Assembly (NCBI GenBank): GCA_030694365.1
Contig: JAUXYM010000017.1
Span: 1 to 42,329 of the forward strand
Length of the DNA stretch: 42,329 nucleotides
Source of the DNA: Nevskia sp.
Lineage (GTDB): Bacteria > Pseudomonadota > Gammaproteobacteria > Nevskiales > Nevskiaceae
Direction of reading: 5' to 3'
The position numbers were made by a program, and so were the translations under genes. The notes beneath the pieces are model-generated. The model saw only the letters and a program-made list of their open reading frames with translations. It was not told the origin of the DNA and ran no database searches. How positions within the stretch are numbered: the stretch's first letter is position 1; the number at the start of each line of letters is the position of its first letter. Positions 1 through 21,314 of this stretch are shown piece by piece.

Positions 1-119
1 GTTTTTGCCCATTGCTGCCTCTCTCGTCGCGTCAATGGGTCGGCCATTGCCCGCTCCTCGTTCGTTGCACTGGGCAAAAACGATCCCGCCGCAGCGATCA
101 AAGCAATTGCTAACAGGCC
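1..119 (-). repeat. 3' flank of nfeD with inverted repeat and an element shared with pilQ
   Basis: No gene is visible here. An 11-bp inverted repeat, GTTTTTGCCCA at 1-11 and TGGGCAAAAAC at 71-81, could form a long-looped hairpin. Read on the minus strand, the bases just after the nfeD TAG stop (about 119 to 88) run GGCCTGTTAGCAATTGCTTT and then GATCGCTGCG. This nearly matches the bases just after the pilQ TAG stop at 17709-17740. The likeness suggests a dispersed 3'-end repeat; its function is unknown. Confidence 0.5.
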
Positions 120-578
120 CTACTCCGCGTGCAGTGCTTCCACTTTCAAGGTCGTGCCATCGGTACCGATCACCTTGACCCGGCTGCCGGCCTTGAGCTT
201 CGGGCCGGATACCCGCCATACCGAGTCATCGAGCCGGGCCTGGCCAATGCCGTTCTCGATGTCGGAAATCAGGGTCAGCTCGCGGCCGATGGTGTGCCGG
301 CCGCGCTGGTTCAGGCCGTTGTCGACAGCGTCGTTGTGGGTCAGCGGTCGGTACTTCAGCCACAGCACCACCGCTGCCAGCGACAGCACCGCGAACATCA
401 CGATCTCGCCGGCCCAGCTCAGGCCCGGAATCGCCCAGGCTGCGATGCCGGTGACTAAGGCGGCGAAGCCGATCCACATGAAAAAGGTGCCCGGCGTCAG
501 GATTTCAGCGACCAGCAGCAGGAAGCCGAGCACCCACCAGTGCCAGTACACGAAGCCGTCGCTGAGAATTGCGTCCAT
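120..578 (-). CDS. NfeD-family inner-membrane protein
   Basis: A 152-residue protein of the short NfeD/YbbK type. Three hydrophobic segments lie at about residues 12-30, 32-50 and 57-72. They are followed by a soluble tail (about 90-150) with the size and beta-rich look of the NfeD OB-fold domain, including a GSRVKVIGTDGTTLKVEA stretch. NfeD proteins are membrane partners of SPFH/stomatin proteins and are thought to help organise membrane microdomains or protein quality control. The SPFH gene lies directly upstream on the same strand with a 27-bp gap, the usual pairing, so the two are probably co-transcribed. The family call is firm; the exact cellular role is inferred. Confidence 0.88.
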   Translation of the reverse strand: MDAILSDGFVYWHWWVLGFLLLVAEILTPGTFFMWIGFAALVTGIAAWAIPGLSWAGEIVMFAVLSLAAVVLWLKYRPLTHNDAVDNGLNQRGRHTIGRELTLISDIENGIGQARLDDSVWRVSGPKLKAGSRVKVIGTDGTTLKVEALHAE

Positions 579-14184: not shown

Positions 14185-14882
14185 CCGTTCAGGAGGCATT
14201 CGCCGAACTGCAGGCACTGGATCTCAAGAACCCCGGTGCCTGGCCGCGCTGGGCGCATGTCGGCGCGGCGGTGCTGGCGTTCGTCGTGCTGGTCGGCTTC
14301 GGCGTCTGGATGTGGCTGGAACCCGAGTACCAGGCGCTGGGCGTCGAGGAACAGAAAGAACAGGGCCTGCGCGGCGAATTCGAGAAGAAGCAGCAGAAGG
14401 TCGCCGCGCTCGATGCCTACAAGGCGCAACTGGCAGTCATGGAGCGCGATTTCGGCGCCATGCTGCGCCAGTTGCCGAGCAAGACCGAAGTCGAGAACCT
14501 GCTCAACGACATCTCCCAGACCCGGGTCGCGTCGAGCCTGGAGGAAGAGCTGTTCCAGCCGCAGTCGGAAACACCTAAGGATTTCTACGCCGAGGTGCCG
14601 AACCGGATCGTGGTCACCGGCAGCTATCACGAGATGGGTGCTTTCGTCGGCGGTGTTGCGGCGCTGCCGCGCATCGTCACCATCGATGAAGTCGAGATCA
14701 AGCCGGCCGTCGGCTCGGCGCAGCAGGGCCAGGCACAGGGCCAGAACCAGGGATTGGGTCGCGGTGCCCTGCGGATGAGCGCGCTGGCCAAGACCTACCG
14801 CTATCTCGATGAAAGCGAGATCACCACCACCGATGCCGCTGGCGCTGCCGGCCGCGCAGGTCGTCGTGGAGCGCGCCAATGA
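14181..14882 (+). CDS. pilO: Type IV pilus assembly protein PilO
   Basis: A 233-residue bitopic inner-membrane protein and partner of PilN. A single membrane segment lies at about 30-48 (VGAAVLAFVVLVGFGVWMW). It is followed by a coiled coil (EEQKEQGLRGEFEKKQQKV) and a periplasmic ferredoxin-like domain. The C-terminus is extended with low-complexity Gly/Gln/Ala/Arg (about 175-190 and 220-233). It overlaps both neighbours by ATGA, showing tight coupling. Confidence 0.95.
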   Translation: MTVQEAFAELQALDLKNPGAWPRWAHVGAAVLAFVVLVGFGVWMWLEPEYQALGVEEQKEQGLRGEFEKKQQKVAALDAYKAQLAVMERDFGAMLRQLPSKTEVENLLNDISQTRVASSLEEELFQPQSETPKDFYAEVPNRIVVTGSYHEMGAFVGGVAALPRIVTIDEVEIKPAVGSAQQGQAQGQNQGLGRGALRMSALAKTYRYLDESEITTTDAAGAAGRAGRRGARQ

Positions 14883-15400
14883 GCCGCCATCACCGCTGGG
14901 TCCTGCCGTTGCTGGCCAGCCTGCTGCTGTCGGCCTGCAGCAGCAACAGGGGCGATCTCGAAGCCTGGGTGACCGAGGTCAAGGCACGCAAGACCACGCA
15001 GATCGACCCGATTCCGCAGATGAAGCAGTACGAGGCCTATGCCTATGTCAGCGACGCGCGCCGCGATCCCTTCGTCAACTCGCCGGAGACCCAGCAGCGT
15101 GCCGACGGCGGCGAAGGCTCGGCACTGCGCCCGGACCTGAACCGCAACAAGGAACCGCTGGAAGGATTCCCGATCGACGCGCTGCGCCTGGTCGGCATGG
15201 TGGTCTTCGGCGGCAAGACCTACGCGATGGTCAAGGCACCGGACTCGGTCATCCACCGGGTCAGCAACGGCGATCACCTGGGCCAGAACTACGGCCGCAT
15301 CAACAAGGTCACCGAGGCCGAAGTCAGCCTCACCGAAATCATTCCCGATGGCTTCGGCGGCTTCACCGAACGAGCGGCATCACTGGCCGCCGCCGAATGA
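14879..15400 (+). CDS. pilP: Type IV pilus assembly lipoprotein PilP
   Basis: A 173-residue lipoprotein with signal ending LLASLLLSACSS (lipobox LSAC, Cys20). A flexible region of about 60 residues contains YVSDARRDPFVN, the conserved PilP segment. The C-terminal beta domain follows (PIDALRLVGMVVFGGKTYAMVKAP, VSNGDHLGQNYGRI). PilP joins the PilNO inner-membrane complex to the PilQ secretin. It is coupled to pilO by a 4-nt overlap. Confidence 0.95.
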   Translation: MSRHHRWVLPLLASLLLSACSSNRGDLEAWVTEVKARKTTQIDPIPQMKQYEAYAYVSDARRDPFVNSPETQQRADGGEGSALRPDLNRNKEPLEGFPIDALRLVGMVVFGGKTYAMVKAPDSVIHRVSNGDHLGQNYGRINKVTEAEVSLTEIIPDGFGGFTERAASLAAAE

Positions 15401-15471
15401 TCCTCATGATCCGCCAGCCGCAGCAGACTGACCGCCACCACCCCCGAACGATGCTGCACTGGAGCACCACG

Positions 15472-17709
15472 ATGTCGACTCGAACCGCCCCTGACGCGCC
15501 TGTCGATCGGAGGAATCGCCCAGCGGGATGGCTGCACCGTGCCGCTGCGCTGCTGCTTGTGCTGGCCACGCTGGGGCTGCCGGCGCAGGCCCAGCCGCAG
15601 CGCACGCTGCAGAGCATGGATTTCGTCGCCCTCGACGGCGACCGCGTGCTGCTGACCCTGACCCTGTCGGGGCCAGCGCCGGAGCCGCTGGTGTTCGCCA
15701 TCGACAAGCCGGCGCGCCTGTCGATGGATTTGCCGGACACCGCGTTGGCGCTGGTCGAGCGTTACCGCAAGGTCAATGTCGGCCAGGTGCGTTCGATCGC
15801 CGCTGCCGAAGCCAAGGGCCGTGCGCGGGTGGTCATCGAGATGAACGCGCTGACGCCGCACACGGTGCGAGTCGACGGCAACAAGGTCTACCTCGAACTC
15901 GCCGGGCTCGCCGGCGCGCTGTCCGCTCCCCGATCGGCAGCCGCCACGAAGCCGCCGCAGACCGCGACCACCGCCGCGACTGCGGCCGCACCGCCGAGAC
16001 AGGCCGCGACGGCCGCACCGGTGCAGGGCCTGATCTCGAACATCGACTTCCGCCGTGGCGAGAAGGGCGAAGGCCGGGTCATCGTCGCGCTCGGCGACAC
16101 CCGCAATGCCGTCGATGTCCGCGAGGAAGGCGGCAAGATCGTGGTCCGCTTCAAGAACACCTCGGTGCCGGAACGCCTGGCCAAGCGCTTCGACGTGCTC
16201 GATTTCGCCACCCCGGTGAAGTTCATCGACGCCTCCCGCGACGGTGCCAACGCCCAGATCATCGTCACCCCGATCGCCGCCGGTGACTTCGAGCAGGTCG
16301 CCTATCAGTCCGGCAACCTGTTCACCCTGGAACTGCAGCCGATCTCGCAGGACAAGCTCGACGAGCGTCGCCGGCTGGAGCCGCAGTACAGCGGCGAAAA
16401 GATCAGCCTGTCGTTCCAGAGCATCGATGTGCGTTCGCTGCTGCAGATCATTGCCGACGTCGCCCAGACCAACATGGTGGTCTCCGATTCGGTGACCGGC
16501 CAGATCGCCATGCGCCTGCAGAACGTGCCCTGGGATCAGGCGCTGGACATCATCCTGCGCACCAAGGGCCTGGGCCAGCGCAAGGCTGGCAACGTCATCC
16601 TGGTCGCTCCGCTCGACGAGCTTGCCCAGCGTGAAAAGGCCGACCTGGAAAACGAGAAGCAGAAGGTGCAGCTCGCCGCCCTCCGTTCGGAAATCATCCA
16701 GGTCAACTACGCCAAGGCCAGCGAGCTGGCGAGCCTGATCAAGTCGAAGGACAACTCGGTGTTGTCCGAGCGCGGCAGCGTCACCGTCGACGAGCGCACC
16801 AACACCATGCTGGTGCTGGAAACCCGCGACAAGCTCGGTGAGATTCGCGCTCTGGTGCAGCGCCTCGACATCCCGGTGCGCCAGGTGCTGATCGAGTCGC
16901 GCATCGTCGTCGCCCGCTCGAACTTCGATCGTGAATTCGGCGCCCGTTTCGGTTTCAGCGGCAATCGCACACGGGACGGCGGCAACGGCGGCCTGATCTC
17001 GACCAGCGGCAGCGGCGAAGGCACCAATACCTCCTTGACCGGTTCGCCAACCGGTTCACCGTCGATCGGCGGCTCGACGCCGGCGCCGCGTTCGGCGGGC
17101 GCGATCGGCGATCGCTACAACGTCAATCTGCCGGTTGCCAATCCGGCTGGCAGCATCGCGCTGGCGATCCTCGGCCGCAATTCGCTGATCGATCTGGAAC
17201 TATCGGCGCTGCAGTCCGAAGGCAAGGGCGAAGTGATTTCCAGTCCGCGGGTGATCACCGCCAACGGCAAGCAGGCGTCGATCGAGCAGGGTCGTGAAAT
17301 CCCGTTCCAGAACGCCACCTCCAGCGGTGCCACGGCAGTGCAGTTCAAGAAAGCGGTGCTGAGCCTGAACGTGACGCCGCAGATCACGCCGGACAACCGG
17401 GTGATCATGGATCTGGCGGTCACCAACGATTCCCAGGGCACCGATGTCGCCCAGAGCGGCGGCGGCTCGGCACCAGCGATCGATACCCGCAAGGTGACCA
17501 CGCAGGTGCTGGTCGACAACGGCCAGACCGTGGTGCTCGGCGGCATCTACGAACAGACCAGCAATGACAGCGTCACCAAGGTGCCGCTGCTCGGCGACAT
17601 CCCGGTGCTCGGCGTACTGTTCCGCAACAAGATCAAGATCCAGAACAAGACCGAACTGCTGATCTTCATCACGCCGAAAATCCTCAGCGAAGGCCTGAAG
17701 GTAAACTAG
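15472..17709 (+). CDS. pilQ: Type IV pilus secretin PilQ
   Basis: A 745-residue outer-membrane secretin through which the pilus passes. A Sec signal peptide precedes AQA-QPQ (about residue 41). Two AMIN peptidoglycan-binding domains lie at about 45-125 and 185-275, separated by an Ala/Thr/Pro-rich linker. An STN/N0 domain is at about 310-380 (ISLSFQSIDVRSLLQIIADV), N1 at about 400-475 and the secretin barrel at about 560-742. The barrel includes VISSPRVITANGKQASIEQG and VPLLGDIPVLGVLF. The start at 15472 was chosen for its GGAG site 7 nt upstream and the signal peptide; an ATG at 15397 overlapping the pilP stop is also in frame. A Gly/Ser/Thr-rich loop lies in the barrel (about 500-540). Confidence 0.96.
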   Translation: MSTRTAPDAPVDRRNRPAGWLHRAAALLLVLATLGLPAQAQPQRTLQSMDFVALDGDRVLLTLTLSGPAPEPLVFAIDKPARLSMDLPDTALALVERYRKVNVGQVRSIAAAEAKGRARVVIEMNALTPHTVRVDGNKVYLELAGLAGALSAPRSAAATKPPQTATTAATAAAPPRQAATAAPVQGLISNIDFRRGEKGEGRVIVALGDTRNAVDVREEGGKIVVRFKNTSVPERLAKRFDVLDFATPVKFIDASRDGANAQIIVTPIAAGDFEQVAYQSGNLFTLELQPISQDKLDERRRLEPQYSGEKISLSFQSIDVRSLLQIIADVAQTNMVVSDSVTGQIAMRLQNVPWDQALDIILRTKGLGQRKAGNVILVAPLDELAQREKADLENEKQKVQLAALRSEIIQVNYAKASELASLIKSKDNSVLSERGSVTVDERTNTMLVLETRDKLGEIRALVQRLDIPVRQVLIESRIVVARSNFDREFGARFGFSGNRTRDGGNGGLISTSGSGEGTNTSLTGSPTGSPSIGGSTPAPRSAGAIGDRYNVNLPVANPAGSIALAILGRNSLIDLELSALQSEGKGEVISSPRVITANGKQASIEQGREIPFQNATSSGATAVQFKKAVLSLNVTPQITPDNRVIMDLAVTNDSQGTDVAQSGGGSAPAIDTRKVTTQVLVDNGQTVVLGGIYEQTSNDSVTKVPLLGDIPVLGVLFRNKIKIQNKTELLIFITPKILSEGLKVN

Positions 17710-17763
17710 GGGTCTGCTGGCATTGCTTTGATCGCTGCGACCAAAGCAATGCCAGCAGACCCC
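17709..17763 (+). repeat. Perfect 22-bp stem-loop immediately after pilQ
   Basis: GGGGTCTGCTGGCATTGCTT and two more bases (17709-17730) are exactly complementary to 17742-17763. The 11-nt loop ATCGCTGCGAC itself holds TCGC/GCGA. The stem starts at the last base of the pilQ stop. There is no T run. Bases 17709-17740 resemble the sequence just after the nfeD stop at the left edge. It may stabilise or attenuate RNA between the pil and aro genes. Confidence 0.85.
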
Positions 17764-20618: not shown

Positions 20619-21314
20619 GTGGCCCGCCTCCCACGCCTGACCGTCCCCGGCTACCCGCACCACGTCATCCAGCGGGGCAACAACCGGCAGCCGGTGTTCG
20701 TCGACGACCAGGACCGGGAAACCCTGCTCGGTCTGCTCAGCGAATACGCGACGAAGCACAAGGTGGCGATTCATGCCTGGGTGCTGATGGGCAACCATTT
20801 CCACCTGCTGGCGACGCCCGCCACCGACAAGGGCTTGCCGCTGATGATGCAGGCGCTCGGCCGGCGCTATGTGCAGATCTTCAACCGACGCCACGCGCGC
20901 ACCGGCACGCTCTGGGAAGGACGTTATCGTGCCACTTTGGTGCAGACCGATCGCTATCTGCTCGCCTGCATGGCCTACATCGATCTCAATCCGGTGCGCG
21001 CCGGGCTGGCCGCAAAAGCGGCGGACTGGCGCTGGTCCAGCCATCGGCACTACGTCGGCGAGCATCAAGACCGTTTGCTGACGCCGCATCCGTTGTGCTG
21101 GGCGCTCGGCAATACGCCGTTTGCGCGCGAAGCCGCTTATGCCGATCTGGTGCAGCAGGGGGTCGCGCTCGATCAGCAGGCGCTGCTGACCGATGCCACG
21201 CTCAAAGGCTGGGCATTGGGCGACCGCGTTTTCCTTGACCAGATCGAAGTACAGACCGATCGTCGGACCACGCGCAATCGAGCCGGGCGGCCGCCGCTGA
21301 AAAAACCGGGCTGA
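20619..21314 (+). CDS. REP-associated tyrosine transposase (RAYT, Y1 HUH family)
   Basis: A 231-residue single-domain HUH nuclease of the Y1_Tnp/RAYT type. The start motif ARLPRLTVPGYPHHVIQRGN is diagnostic. The HUH is His60-Phe61-His62 in MGNHFHLLATP. A likely catalytic tyrosine is Tyr84 in GRRYVQIFNRR, followed by the conserved TGTLWEGRYRA and CMAYIDLNPVRAGL. Such proteins nick REP-like palindromes and are usually single-copy, domesticated-looking genes. It starts with GTG 11 bp after the dgt stop. The following 120 bp are markedly AT-rich and carry repeat motifs. Confidence 0.92.
   Translation: MARLPRLTVPGYPHHVIQRGNNRQPVFVDDQDRETLLGLLSEYATKHKVAIHAWVLMGNHFHLLATPATDKGLPLMMQALGRRYVQIFNRRHARTGTLWEGRYRATLVQTDRYLLACMAYIDLNPVRAGLAAKAADWRWSSHRHYVGEHQDRLLTPHPLCWALGNTPFAREAAYADLVQQGVALDQQALLTDATLKGWALGDRVFLDQIEVQTDRRTTRNRAGRPPLKKPG

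Follow-up and report, generated by a model that had tools for sequence, protein, structure and literature searches.

The closest published relatives of the element described here are QMITE1 of Coxiella burnetii and the REPINs of Pseudomonas fluorescens. According to the excerpt of its description that we consulted, QMITE1 is 300-400 bp long with terminal inverted repeats of 21-28 bp, is present in about 45 copies, has a predicted fold of -193 kcal/mol, and has direct repeats that are short or variable (PMC5896051). For REPINs, compensatory changes in the hairpins have been noted and excision footprints are short (PMC3116915). Some genes for REP-associated tyrosine transposases (RAYT; REP, repetitive extragenic palindrome) are flanked by long terminal inverted repeats (PMC3733652). 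Here, we analyzed a stretch of 42,329 nucleotides from Nevskia sp. (assembly GCA_030694365.1, contig JAUXYM010000017.1, positions 1 to 42,329), referred to in its full length as the window, in which nearly the same bases follow the stop codons of nfeD and pilQ. Judging from sequence comparison, we think it probable that these bases belong to a non-autonomous mobile DNA element resembling REPINs or miniature inverted-repeat transposable elements (MITEs), with arms that are kept complementary, probably by template switching, and with solo forms that would arise by internal deletion. The family appears to be undescribed in the literature searched. The relevant features of the window are as follows.

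1-120, plus strand: right-hand portion of a hairpin element of full length that is truncated by the contig start; 93% identical to the right part of a 280-bp element at G000:C1:11401-11680
90-120, minus strand: terminal inverted arm, read on this strand as GGGCCTGTTAGCAATTGCTTTGATCGCTGCG; exact 17-mer match, aligned with the arms of 77 copies
1-11, plus strand: left strand of the internal arm B stem, GTTTTTGCCCA (sequence and structure)
71-81, plus strand: right strand of the internal arm B stem, TGGGCAAAAAC (sequence and structure)
120-578, minus strand: nfeD, with stop codon TAG at 120-122, its G common to the element (Pfam NfeD; comparison with genomes G002, G010 and G014)
14809-17709, plus strand: pilQ, with stop codon TAG at 17707-17709 (NCBIfam TIGR02515 IV_pilus_PilQ; empty sites in relatives)
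17709-17763, plus strand: solo element, two terminal arms without interior, perfect 22-bp stem (site empty in G010, G014 and G002)
20619-21314, plus strand: RAYT gene, 3 kb downstream of pilQ (NF047646, 87 bits, cut-off 80; PDB 4er8 TnpArep, E-value 4.5e-4)

The shared bases belong to a larger repeat

An earlier sequence-only reading of the window had pointed out the near-identical bases directly after the two stop codons, both TAG, and this is borne out: on the coding strand, TAG is followed by GGCCTGTTAGCAATTGCTTTGATCGCTGCG after nfeD and by GGGTCTGCTGGCATTGCTTTGATCGCTGCG after pilQ, the pilQ version having one G more and one A fewer. The perfect stem that it had described after pilQ is also present (17709-17730 pairs with 17742-17763, the first base being the G of the TAG stop), as is the 11-bp inverted repeat after nfeD (1-11 with 71-81). 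The resemblance is not a chance match. A 17-mer from the shared bases recurs across the draft genome that contains the window (G000, 3.08 Mb in 124 contigs; the window is G000:C121), with 4 exact places, 12 places with at most one mismatch, and 54 with at most three, versus 7 for the reversed control pattern at the last threshold. Many of these places form opposite-orientation pairs about 235-250 bp apart, and the shared bases are therefore the end of a larger repeat.

Copies fetched from G000 are usually 265-283 bp long and have terminal inverted arms of about 31 bp. Each arm has the form GGG[C/T]CTGTT-variable-CTTTG-[A/G]TCGCTGCG and pairs with the opposite arm, and the tips read TA, then GGGYCTGTT. 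The interior is made up of arms A and B, each an imperfect hairpin, and of a small hinge, GCAACCC-GGGGCGGG. The whole element is predicted to fold into one long structure of -150 to -180 kcal/mol. With a length below 500 bp, terminal inverted repeats and many dispersed copies (up to about 30 per genome), it is MITE-like in these respects.

G000 contains about 17 full or partial copies and 2 solos. In the pilQ solo, the arms are joined by a few bases, and other solos were found at G000:C50 and G016:C2:781032; internal deletion would be the simplest origin of such forms. Positions 1-119, which had been described as the element after nfeD, are really a truncated copy of the larger element, the contig beginning inside it. 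Contigs C18, C53, C73 and C108 of G000 also begin or end inside copies, so the repeats break the assembly.

Filled and empty sites, and the origin of the TAG stops

We compared about 30 sites at which one species has the element and close relatives do not, i.e., insertion polymorphisms between relatives. The net length change was -12 to +3 bp, and the commonest reading of the filled site was T[A-GGG...CCC-T]A. TA flanks many copies on both sides; TA duplication and insertion at T^A are indistinguishable here.

At the end of pilQ, the three relatives with an empty site (G010, G014 and G002) read AAACTGACG, with a TGA stop, and the window reads AAACTAG. The same change from TGA to TAG was seen at six further sites (L071, L080, L158, L030, L073 and L155). 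In these three relatives, nfeD ends with GAG-CCT-CGT-CAT-TCC-TGA, versus GAG-TAG in the window, where the gene has lost its last four codons. As the inserted tip reads TA, then GGG, and the empty relatives have TGA, the TAG shared by the two genes is made by the element. Of the 52 copies that adjoin a gene end, 23 show overlap between a TAG stop and the tip.

We propose that the element inserts in stop codons and in short gaps between genes, its tips being flanked as T[A...T]A, without a long target duplication and often with loss of a few target bases. Upon landing in a TGA stop or just inside a gene end, the tip makes a TAG.

One copy in G000 (L031, G000:C63:111412-111705) has on its left the gene that adjoins nfeD in relatives, whereas the sequence on its right is located some 510 kb away in G002. 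The two arms of this copy agree poorly (25 of 30). Recombination between two copies is a possible explanation.

Position relative to genes

The sequence-only reading had suggested a dispersed 3' regulatory or stabilizing repeat, and had proposed a genome search for it. Dispersal is confirmed by that search, which found many copies beyond these two, with gene boundaries respected: according to gene positions from a simple codon-usage gene caller, none of the 77 Nevskia-type copies is intragenic. A regulatory or stabilizing role at the 3' end is unsupported. In addition to the TAG being supplied by the tip at sites where relatives without the insertion have TGA, the distribution over gene borders is unfavorable. 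In the 73 copies left after removal of orthologous duplicates, co-directional sites have the element in one orientation in 36 cases and in the other in 11 (p = 3e-4), 19 sites are divergent, and only 5 are convergent (tail-to-tail), the rarest class. The left end of the element points towards a start codon in 57 of the 73 copies, at a median distance of 32 bp. A start-facing end and rare convergent sites do not fit a 3'-end element. The element may nevertheless have an incidental effect on mRNA.

The same data bear on the idea that bidirectional or intrinsic transcription terminators have spread at gene ends, which would account for strong hairpins directly after stop codons. One copy (L034, G000:C48:39898-40166) is located within a likely intrinsic terminator, in the loop of its hairpin (GGGCCGGC...GTCGGCCC, with a T run behind it). 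However, the pilQ hairpin does not correspond to an intrinsic terminator: no T run follows it, and the single weak terminator match uses a different small stem. Convergent gene pairs, the natural place for bidirectional terminators, are the least used setting. We consider this explanation highly improbable.

A candidate outward promoter at the left end of the element (TTGACY-N17-AGTAAT), spotted by eye, was discarded as unsupported, its -10 part falling in the variable arm.

Arms change together

At arm positions 8-21 of the 77 copies, identity is 92% within a copy versus 55% between copies, the within-copy value being biased upward because arm boundaries in Nevskia were set partly by maximizing pairing; none of 10,000 shuffles reached the observed value. 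In 40 copies from outside Nevskia, the values are 92% and 40%, the former again biased, as this set was chosen partly by arm pairing. Of the 84 consensus pairs in the structure as a whole, 38 occur with at least two Watson-Crick types, and covariation extends to all helices.

Orthologous pairs are less exposed to the arm-boundary bias, and in three of them both arms differ together: at position 11 in L029/L087 (A/A to G/G), at position 26 in L030/L153 (A/A against G/G), and at position 4 in L085/L157 (T/T against C/C). The insertion site of the last pair holds a third copy in G014 (L160), which is 97% identical and inverted within the same flanks, so that sister species carry the element in opposite orientation.

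Template switching between inverted repeats is described, in the consulted part of one report, as homogenizing arms and inverting spacers (PMC8604942), and in that of another as maintaining RNA hairpins (PMC8794818). We infer that the coordinated arm changes and the in-place inversion are a signature of this process. Polymerase switching between the arms, the most likely cause, would copy one arm onto the other and could flip the interior, and the arms of each copy would thus remain complementary even as their sequence changes.

Covariation is also what selection for RNA pairing would produce. The hairpin, transcribed within an operon, could stabilize or process mRNA or control translation of the downstream gene. 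Covariation in all helices, the fixed end facing start codons at short distance, and the presence of copies in short operon gaps, where read-through transcription is expected, would agree with such a structured RNA. However, the outer stem has G.T and A.C mismatches in nearly equal number (48 vs 39), and neither strand is therefore favored as RNA. The strand that is co-directional with most neighboring genes folds worse in the alignment (-109 vs -120), the sites are empty in close relatives, so that the neighboring genes manage without the element, and Rfam contains no credible covariance-model match for it, even at relaxed thresholds. On balance, a structured RNA appears doubtful.

Small perfect palindromes (for example CGCAGAGCATGCTCTGCG) are inserted in arm A or B of four copies (L087, L100, L103 and L105), and look as if arms or loops grow via hairpin copying.

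The family provides many natural replicates of a long stem with arms changing together, and among sister species one and the same locus can be found empty, filled or inverted. Whether hairpin pairing is due to selection or to template switching is therefore directly testable. The element also accounts for a set of TAG stops and of contig breaks in these genomes.

The RAYT gene and mobilization

In the mechanism proposed here, the element would be mobilized in trans. The RAYT gene of the window is a weak candidate for the mobilizer. It is located between an HD-domain (dGTPase-like) gene and a glutamate synthase gene, without flanking REPs, and this locus beside pilQ is conserved in nine Nevskia genomes (the window and eight others). 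The element could then be a REPIN, moved by this IS200/IS605-type single-strand transposase acting on the hairpin. Co-occurrence is in line with this possibility: in 17 of 18 genomes of the genus, Y1_Tnp and the element are either both present or both absent (all 15 Y1_Tnp-positive genomes carry the element, and two of the three negative ones do not), and all 14 genomes of the order with at least 10 element matches have a RAYT. The apparent lack of a target duplication would fit as well. On the other hand, four genomes contain a few copies and no RAYT, and the copies have neither a GTAG tag nor ends that are palindromic individually. In 22 RAYT loci examined, element arms were never seen as flanks; several carry GTAG REPs instead, and the repeat-flanked RAYT genes of the order are associated with classical REPs and never with element arms. 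No element was found within 1.5 kb of the pilQ-side RAYT, the pilQ hairpin being 3 kb away. With co-occurrence modest and the flanks speaking against it, the RAYT was rejected as owner of the element, and we regard mobilization of a REPIN by this enzyme as unlikely. GTAG REPs such as GTAGGGCGGGTGCAACCCGC were seen around other RAYT genes of the order at L200 (G009:C231), L261, L265 and L267.

Several observations weigh against a MITE/REPIN-like mobile element with re-templated arms. In addition to the upward bias of within-copy arm identity, there is no clear target duplication at the compared insertion sites, and a purely selfish element would not account for the biased orientation towards start codons (36 vs 11 at co-directional sites). 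Furthermore, no autonomous element or transposase sharing the tips was found in G002 and G016, the two best-assembled genomes with many copies, to which the search for a parent was directed; a parent may have different ends or reside in another genome. All 31-base tip matches in these two genomes belong to short copies, and no tip pairs 1-3 kb apart were present among the matches listed for G002.

Distribution

The element was matched in 16 of the 18 Nevskia genomes scanned, several of them with 10-33 matches; G004 and G017 were the only ones without a match. Records matching the exact core sequence are titled as Nevskia metagenome-assembled genomes, except for a few whose depositors gave only the class or a different family. 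A query copy taken from a different family of the order found matches in 26 of 31 relatives. A class-wide scan with a copy from an Azotobacter plasmid matched 46 of 369 sampled gammaproteobacterial genomes; many of these matches are short, yet many of the loci that were opened hold full-length copies, whose tips are the same and whose arms match. Copies also reside on plasmids of Azotobacter chroococcum, P. aeruginosa and Halomonas. With homologues in other gammaproteobacterial orders and on plasmids, confinement of the family to the order was rejected, and the family spans many orders of Gammaproteobacteria. No copy was found in phages, viral contigs or E. coli, and a phage origin was discarded for lack of matches in phages and viral contigs.

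Two copies in G006 (L175 and L176) form a subfamily whose tips, GAGC[C/T]CATAACA, are quite different, but whose interior is the same and whose arms pair well. L307 and L310 (in G137 and G260) have homology to arm A and tips TAGTGTACTGCGCCGCTC in place of GGGCCTGTT, and represent a further subfamily or a nested element.

A broader proposal, which we put forward tentatively and do not favor, is a mobile family across Gammaproteobacteria that is defined by structure. The large two-armed hairpin and the tip, not the stem sequence, would be recognized for movement, the arms would be re-templated from each other, the interior could flip, and the spread would be due to some enzyme or to host replication itself. 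If the orientation of one end towards start codons is functional, the element would in addition be a portable 5' regulatory element.

Comparison with known systems

Like the element, the P. fluorescens intergenic families R0, R2 and R6 are multi-copy, hairpin-forming, and built of inverted repeats around a core. In contrast, their inverted repeats are identical, their core is variable, they are biased to tail-to-tail sites, and sizes and copy numbers are different, in a comparison made by description only (PMC2718517). REPs tagged with GTAG or CGTC and TIRtrons are also intergenic palindromes of Gammaproteobacteria, but REPs are 20-40 bp long and have an unpaired GTAG or CGTC tag, and the element has neither tag (PMC3733652).

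REPINs share with the element that they are non-autonomous, intergenic inverted-repeat hairpins with a RAYT in the genome. However, REPIN ends are highly conserved and the spacer is variable, whereas in our element the outer arms are variable and the interior is conserved (PMC3116915). It is also much longer (about 270 bp), and not located beside RAYT genes with REP flanks.

QMITE1, in the part of its description consulted, resembles the element as a gammaproteobacterial MITE with a strong fold that supplies stop codons at gene ends (PMC5896051). It differs, in a comparison by description only, in that promoters and open reading frames are reported and arm covariation is not mentioned in that part (PMC5896051). 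We class the present element as MITE-like, and not as a REPIN.
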